Origin: Balamuthia mandrillaris
Lineage: Eukaryota > Discosea > Longamoebia > Balamuthiidae
Assembly (NCBI GenBank): GCA_031835245.1
Contig: JAVKOQ010000157.1
Coordinates: 1-64,000, forward strand
Direction of reading: 5' to 3'
Length of the DNA: 64,000 nt
The notes beneath the pieces were generated by a model, which was not told the DNA's origin, made no database searches, and saw nothing but the letters and a program-made list of their open reading frames with translations. The first letter of the stretch is position 1; each line of letters begins with the position of its first letter. This document shows, one piece after another, positions 53,473-56,981 of this stretch. The position numbers were made by a program, and so were the translations under genes.

Positions 53473-54225
53473 TCAGAAAAACACTGAGGTGTACTCATCC
53501 CAAGGACATCCGTTCTCTTTGGCCCACTGCAACAATTCCTTGTGTCCTCCCTTGGCTGCCGCGTTGCATGTTCCTCACCCCAAGGACACCCCTGTTCCCT
53601 CAGCCACTGTAGCATTGTCGACGCCCAAAGCAGCCCCTGCGCACGCCCTTGCATTCCAAGAAAACCCTTTCTCCTTTACCCATTTCAACACCTCCAGCTG
53701 TCCTTTCTCCGCTGCTCTTGCGCAAAGCTCTTCATTCCAAGGACACCCTTGCTCATAAAGCCATTGCACCACTTCCAATCTTCCAAGACCAGCTGCTTCG
53801 TAGTAAGCCCAACTGTCCCAGGGGCACCCGTTCTCTTTCAGCCACTGTAGCACTTCCAGCGAGGCAAAAGAGGCAGCCTCCCTAAAGGTAAAACAATTCC
53901 AGGGGCATCCCTTCTCTTTGAGATAGCACAGCACCTCCAAATGTCCTCCACGGGCTGCTGAAGCAAAAGTTTGATGGTCCCAAGGGCATCCATGTTCATG
54001 GAGCCATCGTAGCACATGCAAATGACCGTTGAGCGCGGCATCACTACAAGCCCATGCGTTCCAAGAGCATCCCTGTCCACGTGCCCACTGCAACTGGAGG
54101 CAGAGTAATTCGTCCGGGAGCAACGCATCCAGGAATGATGCTTCCGGGCTTTCTCTTGTCTTCTGTTTCTTTGTCTGGGTGCAAAGCTCTTCCTCTTGTG
54201 TGTGGGAGGCCAGAAAGAGACCCAT
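53473..54225 (-). pseudogene. GCPW-type ankyrin-repeat protein, frameshifted at 3' end
   Basis: The main ORF (54225-53575) gives 216 residues with about six ankyrin-like repeats of 33 residues, each with the pattern A-A-x-x-G-H-L-E-V-L-x-W-L-x-E-x-G-C-P-W. This variant is common in protists and in large DNA viruses of amoebae. Near 53600 the frame is lost. A second frame carries the next repeat (TMLQWLREQGCPWGEEH), and a third frame carries CNAAAKGGHKELLQW and ENGCPWDE to a stop at 53473. Two single-base shifts would restore one protein. It is either a recent pseudogene or assembly error. The N-terminus is Glu/Thr/Lys rich. Confidence 0.7.
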
Positions 54226-54379
54226 CAGAAAGAGACCTTAGAATGGAGATGATCTACTTTCTTTCTTTCTTTTCTTCTTTTTTATTTTATTTTTAATTCT
54301 TTTTTTACATTTTATTTTATTTTATGTATTTTATTTTTTTTTTGCTGAACATTTAAAAAAAAAAGAATGCGAACGACTT

Positions 54380-54426
<47 letters not shown>

Positions 54427-56981
54427 TCACTTCGCTTCTTCTTTCTGTGGCTCGGTTGAGGACGAGGAAGAAGAAGCACAACAAGCAGCACGGCCATGTT
54501 CATCCACCAGGCCCAGCAGCCTCAAGAAACGCACGACCTTTTCATCCAACCAAGCCTTGTGTGGCATGGCGCTCAGCCACTCCTTCGGTAACGCGCTGTA
54601 CCCTTTTCTCGTTCCAAAGAGAGCTCCCGCAACGGCTCCATTCCTGTTTTTTTTGTTTTTTGGTATTGTTGATAAATAAAGGAGAGATTTTTAAAAAAAA
54701 AAAAGGGAGAAAAGAGGGAGACGGGTACGTGTCAGCATCTCCGCCTTCCTTTATGAGGAGGTTGAACGTCTCCTTAAAGTCCCTGTCCGAACAAAGAGCC
54801 CAGAAGCCGCTGCCAACGCATTTAAAGGTGTATCCAATTTTCTGGGATTCGCTCAGTTGCAGGCTGTGAAGGCTGTGCAACGTGGAATCGCGTTTGATGT
54901 GCTCTTCGAATTCTTTCTTGTGTTCTTCCTTCTTCAGAAATTTTGTGCTGTGCTCCATTGCTTTTTTGTTTGACAACGATTAAACAAAAGAAAGAAGGAA
55001 AAAGAAGAAAAAAGAGCTTTAAGAAACCGAACCTTCACCGATAAGCTTCTGAAGTCCTTCAAAAGACTCCACGTCGTGCTTCTCCTGTAGCATCAACGCA
55101 ATAGCCACAGTGGTAGCCACCGAGCTGGCAATGCACCGCGGGTCCCAGTGCGTCACTTTGGCCATACGAATGGTGTTCTCGATTACTTTCTCCAATTGCT
55201 CAAATTGATACACGCCCAACACGGCGGTCCTCATGACGGCTCCGTTGGGAGCAGCCTCTCGGTTGAGCTTGATCCAGGTGGCTTTGGAGGCGGCGTGAGG
55301 GGCCAACAGAAAGTCGGGGTGTTGAAGCACAGAAGAAACGGTGAAGCCTAGGCCCATTCCTGCAAAGTCACCCAACTCGGTAAAGCCGTGATTAACCCAA
55401 TGCTTGAGCTTTCGGGCTGAGAAGAGAGGTGAGAATTGAATACATGAAGAATAATAGAAATAAAGAAAACATCCAACGAAACAATGAATGTACATTTTGC
55501 AACCAAAGGTAAACAAAGAAGGAAGCAAGAAGAGCGAACAAAGACTTGAAGAGTAGAAAAAAAAAGGTGATACGAACCAAAGATGTTTTCGTCTACGCTG
55601 CCTTGGGTTTCCAGAAGAGTATCCATGATAAGGATGAGTTGGTCTGTGTCATCAGTCCAATCACCAGCTGTCCATCGCATGTTGTGGAATGTTCTCTTGT
55701 AATTAGGGAAGGGTACAGGCGCATTCTTATACTTTGCAGTGACCTGCTCCTTAGATTCAAACTCCGTTGCTGCATAGTAAACAACAGGATAAGTGAAAAA
55801 GAAGGAGAAATGAGAAAAAGGACAAATGAACAGAGTCTGTTTTGAGAAGATTGCACAGGGTGAAATAATACCAAGCCCATAAGCATCTCCCAAGGCATTT
55901 CCGTAGATGCAACCGAGGATGCGATCCAATAACTTGCTTTCAAGGCAAGATTCTTCCAAACCTTGCACCCACCAGTGGCCGGTGGAGCTCGAAGAGGATG
56001 AAGAAGAGGACGAGGAGGCACCCTCAGGACCCGTTGTGTTGATCTGTAATATAGTATTTACTGAAAACAAAAAGAATGGCACCAAAGAGTGAGAAGAAGG
56101 AAAAAAGCAGAAGAACAAGAAGCGAGGGAGCGCGTGCGAGAGAGAGAGTGAAAGAAGAGAGATTCAGAGGGAGAGATAATGAGAGAGAGAGAGAGAGGAA
56201 AAAAGAATGCAATCACACCATCGCCAAGTTGTTCGAGAGTCATTCGTTCTTCTCCAGGCGCAGTGCCGAACTTGGCGCGATGCAGAGCAGCAAAGACTTC
56301 TTCGAGTGACTGTTTCAACCAACAAAACAAAAGTAATAATAATTAGACGTCAGAGCGAAGAAGAAAAGAAAAAAGAGAAGAGGAAGACGGACAACATGAA
56401 GAAGAACAAACAAACCTCATGAACGATATAACTATCACACTCATAACACCAAAAAGAGAGATCCGCAAAACTATGCACAAAGTTAGTTCGCTCCAAGCTC
56501 GAGTCGAAGATGATAGAGAGGAGCAAAATGGAACAATAGGAGGCGAAACGATAGATACCTGCACGCCACACAATGTTTGTCAGGGTTAGCCTCGTAGTGA
56601 GTCTTTGCGTGACCTTTCACGTAGCGGCTGCAATGCACGCGCAAGCACTGCATGCAGAGCCAGTTCTCCCCTTTCACATGGCAAGTGTTGCAACCAGCGG
56701 CCAAGAGGTCCTCTGTGGCACAAGAAACGGAAACATAAGAAGAGATGGGATGAGAAGAAGCACCGAATTAAAAACAAAAAAAAAAAACAAAACGAACCAT
56801 TGATGGCAACACCACCTTCGCTTACTGGAGTGGAGGCTTTGGTTTTGTTGAAAGCAGCAGCAAGGTGAGGGCAGTCCGATTTGGGGACTCTGTTTATCGA
56901 AACATGAGGGTAAGCAAGGGTCTTTTTTTTAAACAACTAAAATCTAAAAAACACGTACACAGAAAACCCTTGTGGTTCCAT
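54427..56981 (-). CDS. ZnF-UBP domain fused to ADP-ribosylglycohydrolase
   Basis: Ten exons, phases close, about 541 residues: 56981-56959, 56889-56798, 56712-56559, 56470-56416, 56309-56219, 56060-55872, 55769-55578, 55416-55028, 54952-54729 and 54643-54427. Residues about 8-125 form a ubiquitin-binding ZnF-UBP: CPHL, CNTCHVKGENWLCMQC, HCSRYVKGHAKTH, WCYECDSYIVHE and LHRAKFG. After a Ser run, residues about 165-540 are an ADP-ribosylglycohydrolase: ILGCIYGNALGDAYG, AGDWTDDTDQL, GAVMRTAVLG and GGDADTNGAVAGALFG, covering the magnesium ligands. It should remove or hydrolyse ADP-ribose conjugates, guided by free ubiquitin C-termini (inference). The acceptor of exon 9 is the weakest junction. Confidence 0.9.

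Follow-up and report, generated by a model that had tools for sequence, protein, structure and literature searches.

The gene described here lies on the minus strand of a 64,000-nucleotide stretch of the Balamuthia mandrillaris genome (assembly GCA_031835245.1, contig JAVKOQ010000157.1, positions 1 to 64,000), called the window below. It joins a zinc finger of the ZnF-UBP type to an ADP-ribose hydrolase domain of the ARH type. Ten exons, all in frame from 56981 to 54427, predict a protein of 542 amino acids (aa). The nine introns have GT and AG borders throughout, measure 69 to 161 bases and are compatible in phase. The translation is letter-for-letter identical to P0001, an NCBI protein of B. 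mandrillaris labeled "ADP-ribosylglycohydrolase". P0001 sits on a contig of 129,733 bases, equal in length to the contig of the window, so it probably derives from the annotation of this very assembly and is hence not independent evidence. The ten exons without phase conflict proposed in the first-pass annotation are thus borne out, and its junctions 56416/56309 and 56219/56060 were recovered in the present exon model. A version of exon 1 with donor GTTTTC (539 aa) was dropped; the donor GTACGT at 56958 gives the 542 aa of P0001. The 539-aa version was the query for Pfam, for the HDAC6 finger comparison and for the first search for relatives, and 3 is added to its residue numbers to obtain 542-aa numbering. 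The exons are the following:

56959..56981, minus strand: exon 1, start codon ATG at 56981; donor GTACGT, in agreement with P0001
56798..56889, minus strand: exon 2, with C14 and H16 (CPHL) as the first zinc ligands
56559..56712, minus strand: exon 3, ZnF-UBP core with C46, C49, C58, C61, C66, R68, H73, H77 and H85
56416..56470, minus strand: exon 4, predicted ubiquitin-tail pocket W97, Y99 and Y104 with zinc ligands C98 and C101
56219..56309, minus strand: exon 5, last helix of the ZnF-UBP, then start of the linker
55872..56060, minus strand: exon 6, poly-Ser linker modelled with low confidence (aa 146-164), then the beginning of the ARH domain; lacks a Met codon
55578..55769, minus strand: exon 7, with E204 and T240-D241-D242 of the ARH metal site
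55033..55416, minus strand: exon 8, ARH core with motifs NGAVMRT and VTH
54729..54960, minus strand: exon 9, ARH domain through D468-A469-D470
54427..54643, minus strand: exon 10, completes T471; end of the ARH domain; stop codon TGA at 54429-54427

Both domains were detected with Pfam models. The zf-UBP model matches residues 43-106 (E 2e-15, 57.2 bits against a cut-off of 22.7) and ADP_ribosyl_GH matches residues 185-489 (E 2.6e-61, 208.2 bits against a cut-off of 26.2), both in 539-aa numbering. Since the scores lie far past the cut-offs, these are not chance matches. In the finger, the zinc ligands C46, C49, C58, C61, C66, H73, H77, H85, C98 and C101 align with Cys and His residues of HDAC6, and C14 and H16 are present upstream of the HDAC6 fragment used for the alignment. 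R68, W97, Y99 and Y104 are all kept and align with the Arg, Trp, Tyr and Tyr that we take to be the tail-contact residues of the HDAC6 ZnF-UBP. When superposed on the crystal structure of HDAC6 with ubiquitin, a predicted model of the finger matches it at 1.2 Å over 101 residues. As judged from alignment and model, the finger is an HDAC6-type ZnF-UBP with its tail-contact residues in place. The ZnF-UBP assignment of the first-pass annotation is upheld, and the ubiquitin-binding residues, on whose loss it had been said to founder, are present.

The hydrolase half was likewise read correctly as an ARH-type enzyme with intact metal ligands. E204, T240-D241-D242, D468 and T471, which correspond to metal ligands of DraG, are present. 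Across 61 aligned sequences each of these residues is invariant save E204, which is found in at least 90%. Profile comparison with solved relatives ranks MJ1187 first (7.8e-40), followed by Tri1 (2.8e-31), a Thermus ARH, a Listeria ARH immunity protein and DraG (8e-23), then ARH3 (4.6e-14) and then ARH1. In the structure comparison MJ1187, DraG and ARH3 lie close together (ARH3 and DraG are tied) and ARH1 is further off. Against the NCBIfam equivalog models for DraG and Tri1 the scores, 84.6 of 490 and 70.4 of 337.05 bits, stay far below what the cut-offs demand, and the hydrolase was therefore filed as neither.

The genome holds a second, slightly diverged copy of the locus (L024, at C138:26000-33500), encoding a protein of 544 aa. 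Each of the nine introns is kept there, again bordered by GT and AG; intron lengths differ by at most 29 bases and exon 10 by 6. The main aligned stretch, introns included, is 87% identical in DNA, and the order of the flanks is largely the same. The copies agree at 1586 of 1629 exon positions (97.4%) and at 800 of 858 aligned intron positions (93.2%). Of the changes, 37 are synonymous and 6 non-synonymous, and the ratio of non-synonymous to synonymous rates (dN/dS) is 0.042. Changed codons, synonymous and replacement respectively, number 24 and 3 in the hydrolase, 5 and 1 in the finger (too few for a firm statement on selection there), 5 and 0 in the linker, and 2 and 2 in the C-terminal tail. 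Purifying selection, by this computation, acts on the gene as a whole.

The fusion is also found outside Balamuthia. Proteins with both Pfam domains numbered 19 among the best 120 of 1113 proteins in the first search for relatives and 18 among the best 120 of 641 in the second, which combine to at least 21 distinct proteins. Balamuthia, Pelomyxa schiedti and Capsaspora owczarzaki are named as sources, along with a transcript labeled Phypoly, presumably Physarum polycephalum; further members are metagenomic. Six of the 21 fusions are EukProt open reading frames in which a single assembled transcript carries both halves (P0003, P0006, P0012, P0015, P0017 and P0027). The fusion proteins were themselves used to build a finger profile, which found the finger at E < 1e-4 in 26 of 162 fetched proteins: the 21 Pfam fusions and five weaker ones (P0058, P0067, P0069, P0075 and P0125). 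Rows from dictyostelids (P0111, P0142, P0145) and from bdelloid rotifers have the hydrolase without the finger.

A single origin of the fusion was rejected on the hydrolase tree. The finger-bearing rows do not form one clade (approximately unbiased test, p-AU 0.000155) in a picked sample of 55 ARH domains, 22 with the finger and 33 others from genomes or transcriptomes, the tested group having been named after the wider tree was viewed. In this tree one part of 34 rows (support 84/96) contains 19 of the 22 finger rows. The wider tree has 161 of the 162 rows (P0038 was excluded as short), and a part of 68 rows in it (SH-aLRT, the approximate likelihood ratio test, 89) contains 23 of the 26 finger rows. 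Of the 45 finger-less rows in this larger part, at least 12 are from contigs 0.9-1.6 kb long and may be incomplete. The wider tree needs 16 changes of finger state, 5 of which are forced by well supported branches. The finger therefore appears to have been lost, gained repeatedly, or both, and no single ancient fusion is claimed. A prokaryotic origin of the rows resembling P0115 received no backing: a scan of genome contigs gave one relative at 40% identity (L051), and the finger profile was negative in the L051 DNA examined. Separately, eleven IMG/VR contigs (L040-L050) encode an ARH-like stretch that is 22-38% identical, and the finger profile was negative in the DNA examined there as well. 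ARH domains are also found with leucine-rich repeats, another recruiter on the same type of enzyme (P0136, P0140, P0141, P0148 and P0093, from Balamuthia, Anaeramoeba and others).

The first-pass annotation knew of no described protein with this architecture. This did not hold, given the 21 or more proteins above and a survey from 2014, where the Fig. 3 legend places zf-UBP on an ARH3-like protein of C. owczarzaki with no function stated there (PMC4245714). The same legend assigns a ZnF-RBZ to A. castellanii. The Capsaspora protein of the survey is probably P0122. In the available portions of two other papers, ARH3 in Capsaspora is covered with no mention of the finger (PMC7050489) and no such enzyme is named (PMC12687431). 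Among open-licence PMC papers the architecture was met in PMC4245714 alone, as far as its and their accessible text goes, which does not prove uniqueness; the search listings there did not mention the fusions of Balamuthia, Pelomyxa or Physarum, which is no proof of absence. The architecture is therefore already in print without a function, and it is real, conserved and functionally suggestive. New here are the amoebal members, the HDAC6-type pocket, the constraint between copies, and sirtuins as further partners of the finger.

With moderate confidence, we favor the reading that the protein is a ubiquitin-tail-guided ADP-ribosyl hydrolase. The fusion, the two folds, and the ligand and tail-contact residues are in place; from them we infer ubiquitin binding, catalysis and tethering. 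The N-terminal finger would grip the free C-terminal Gly-Gly of unanchored ubiquitin, the flexible linker would tether it to a metal-dependent hydrolase of the DraG/Tri1 type, and the hydrolase would cleave ADP-ribose from cargo delivered by the finger or from nearby proteins. That ubiquitin itself is the substrate is a tentative suggestion, possible rather than probable, and the least certain part of this reading.

A finger of the HDAC6 type needs a free Gly-Gly tail on ubiquitin. Because of this, and because Deltex blocks the tail, ubiquitin modified at Arg42 or Thr66 would be within reach of the protein and Deltex products hardly so. Ubiquitin ADP-ribosylated on its body, with the tail free, is an attractive candidate substrate; a chemical route to ubiquitin ADP-ribosylated on arginine has been reported (PMC9673145). 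The Balamuthia genome has 4 exon-level matches to the Deltex C-terminal domain, spread over three loci, and 53 PARP matches, counted exon by exon. For the ARTC-type transferase PF01129 it gave no match, and since the control genomes gave none either, its absence cannot be concluded. Among bacterial effectors, SidE is described as ADP-ribosylating ubiquitin at Arg42 (PMC11668277) and CteC as modifying Thr66 (PMC10810742). Balamuthia is listed among the genera that support replication of Legionella (PMC7238060). Human ARH1 is described as acting weakly on ADP-ribosylated ubiquitin, and the authors invoke a lack of host enzymes able to undo the modification (PMC10951314). On these grounds, and because body-modified ubiquitin keeps its free tail, a speculative and on balance unlikely extension can be put forward: in bacteria-eating protists the finger would select unanchored ubiquitin and the hydrolase would strip ADP-ribose added by effectors at Arg42 or Thr66, making the ubiquitin reusable. 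If true, this would be, as far as we know, the first eukaryotic ubiquitin-guided eraser of ADP-ribosyl-ubiquitin. The presence of the fusion in several amoebae, which feed on bacteria and may harbor some of them, makes the statement about missing host enzymes directly testable.

Several observations speak against a ubiquitin-guided hydrolase. The pocket Trp is missing in 6 of the 26 finger rows (5 Arg, 1 Tyr); a metagenome clade with a shortened finger (P0115, P0127, P0075, P0067 and P0125) has Arg in its place in 4 of 5 members. For the catalytic Asp97 of DraG, the HMMER alignment points to E279 as the possible counterpart and the motif to G287, both read by eye. Finger-less ARH relatives are common among the matches listed, so the finger would be dispensable for the basic reaction, and its scattered distribution fits an optional targeting module. 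The predicted model (predicted template modelling score, pTM, 0.71) leaves the relative position of finger and hydrolase unfixed. The weak activity of human ARH1 cited above belongs here too.

In the main rival the finger is used for targeting only. It would bring the enzyme to sites rich in free ubiquitin tails, such as damaged phagosomes, aggregates or sites of deubiquitinase activity, and the substrates would be other ADP-ribosylated proteins. The same type of finger is fused to other erasers, namely HDAC6 and sirtuins (Pelomyxa P0163 and metagenomic P0164), and Balamuthia contig C1 has a match to the finger and one to a sirtuin on the same strand, separated by 231 bases. The Balamuthia protein P0136, with its leucine-rich repeats, likewise pairs the ARH domain with a different recruiter. 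We regard targeting only as a reasonable possibility that falls somewhat short of even. Binding of some C-terminal tail other than that of ubiquitin is improbable. Other tails are conceivable, as the pocket accepts a short C-terminal peptide (HDAC6-RLRGG, 3GV4); against this, all four ubiquitin-tail contacts are kept, unlike in another Balamuthia finger (L004), which has different residues at the Trp and both Tyr positions.

The two remaining alternatives are less probable still. ARH folds are found in mitoribosomes and in the FtsHi motor (6sga, 9hny, 8xks, 8xqw), where their presumed inactivity would be the precedent for a non-catalytic relative serving as a scaffold; the near-complete conservation of the metal site across the 61 aligned rows makes this very unlikely for the Balamuthia protein. 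The last alternative, that separate ZnF-UBP and ARH genes were wrongly spliced together in the model, could draw on the frame of exon 5, which is open through intron 5 up to a TAA near the intron end. The frame of the ARH half, traced upstream, has no ATG before the TGA at 56166, and exon 6 has no Met codon. As the ARH half has no start codon of its own, the nine introns are kept in the diverged second copy and single transcripts carry both domains in other species, a splicing artefact was rejected as extremely unlikely. At the level of sequence the fusion is confirmed as one gene, not two.

Two further features concern sirtuins, one in the window, with exons modelled in this analysis, and one elsewhere in the Balamuthia genome:

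57352..59528, plus strand: divergent sirtuin gene with an AT-hook-like stretch
C1:400438-401607, plus strand: the finger and sirtuin matches mentioned above

The fusion gene and the sirtuin gene of the window stand head to head with start codons 371 bp apart, and both encode NAD or ADP-ribose enzymes. On the other side, at 53500-54240 on the minus strand, reading frames contain repeated ankyrin-like units with CPW; an apparent frame change near 53640 points to a possibly broken gene.

The Balamuthia finger shares its fold, zinc ligands, ubiquitin-tail contacts and KFG ending with the ZnF-UBP of HDAC6. Unlike in HDAC6, the finger is N-terminal and its partner is an ADP-ribose hydrolase domain rather than a deacetylase. 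The nearest non-ARH finger among the matches is that of the Pelomyxa sirtuin P0163 (46% identical across 93% of the region used as query), found in a search that gave 4 matches and did not re-find other ARH fusions, so that nearer fingers may exist. In P0163 and at C1:400438-401607 the catalytic half is instead a sirtuin. That one finger type occurs with a deacetylase, with sirtuins and with ADP-ribose hydrolases hints at ubiquitin tails as recruiters of several kinds of modification eraser. The hydrolase half shares the ARH fold and metal-site residues with MJ1187 and with the ADP-ribosylarginine hydrolases DraG and Tri1, although its equivalog scores fall far short for the latter two; we know of no ubiquitin finger in bacterial enzymes of these types. 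Capsaspora P0122 also has zf-UBP preceding ADP_ribosyl_GH in one protein, but it sits in a different part of the ARH tree. The Capsaspora protein of the 2014 survey, probably P0122, is called ARH3-like there; in sequence scores, Tri1 and DraG come closer to the present family than ARH3 does. Legionella MavL removes ADP-ribose from ubiquitin (as described in PMC10951314), the activity proposed for the Balamuthia protein, but it is a bacterial macrodomain enzyme that is evolutionarily distinct from the ARH family.
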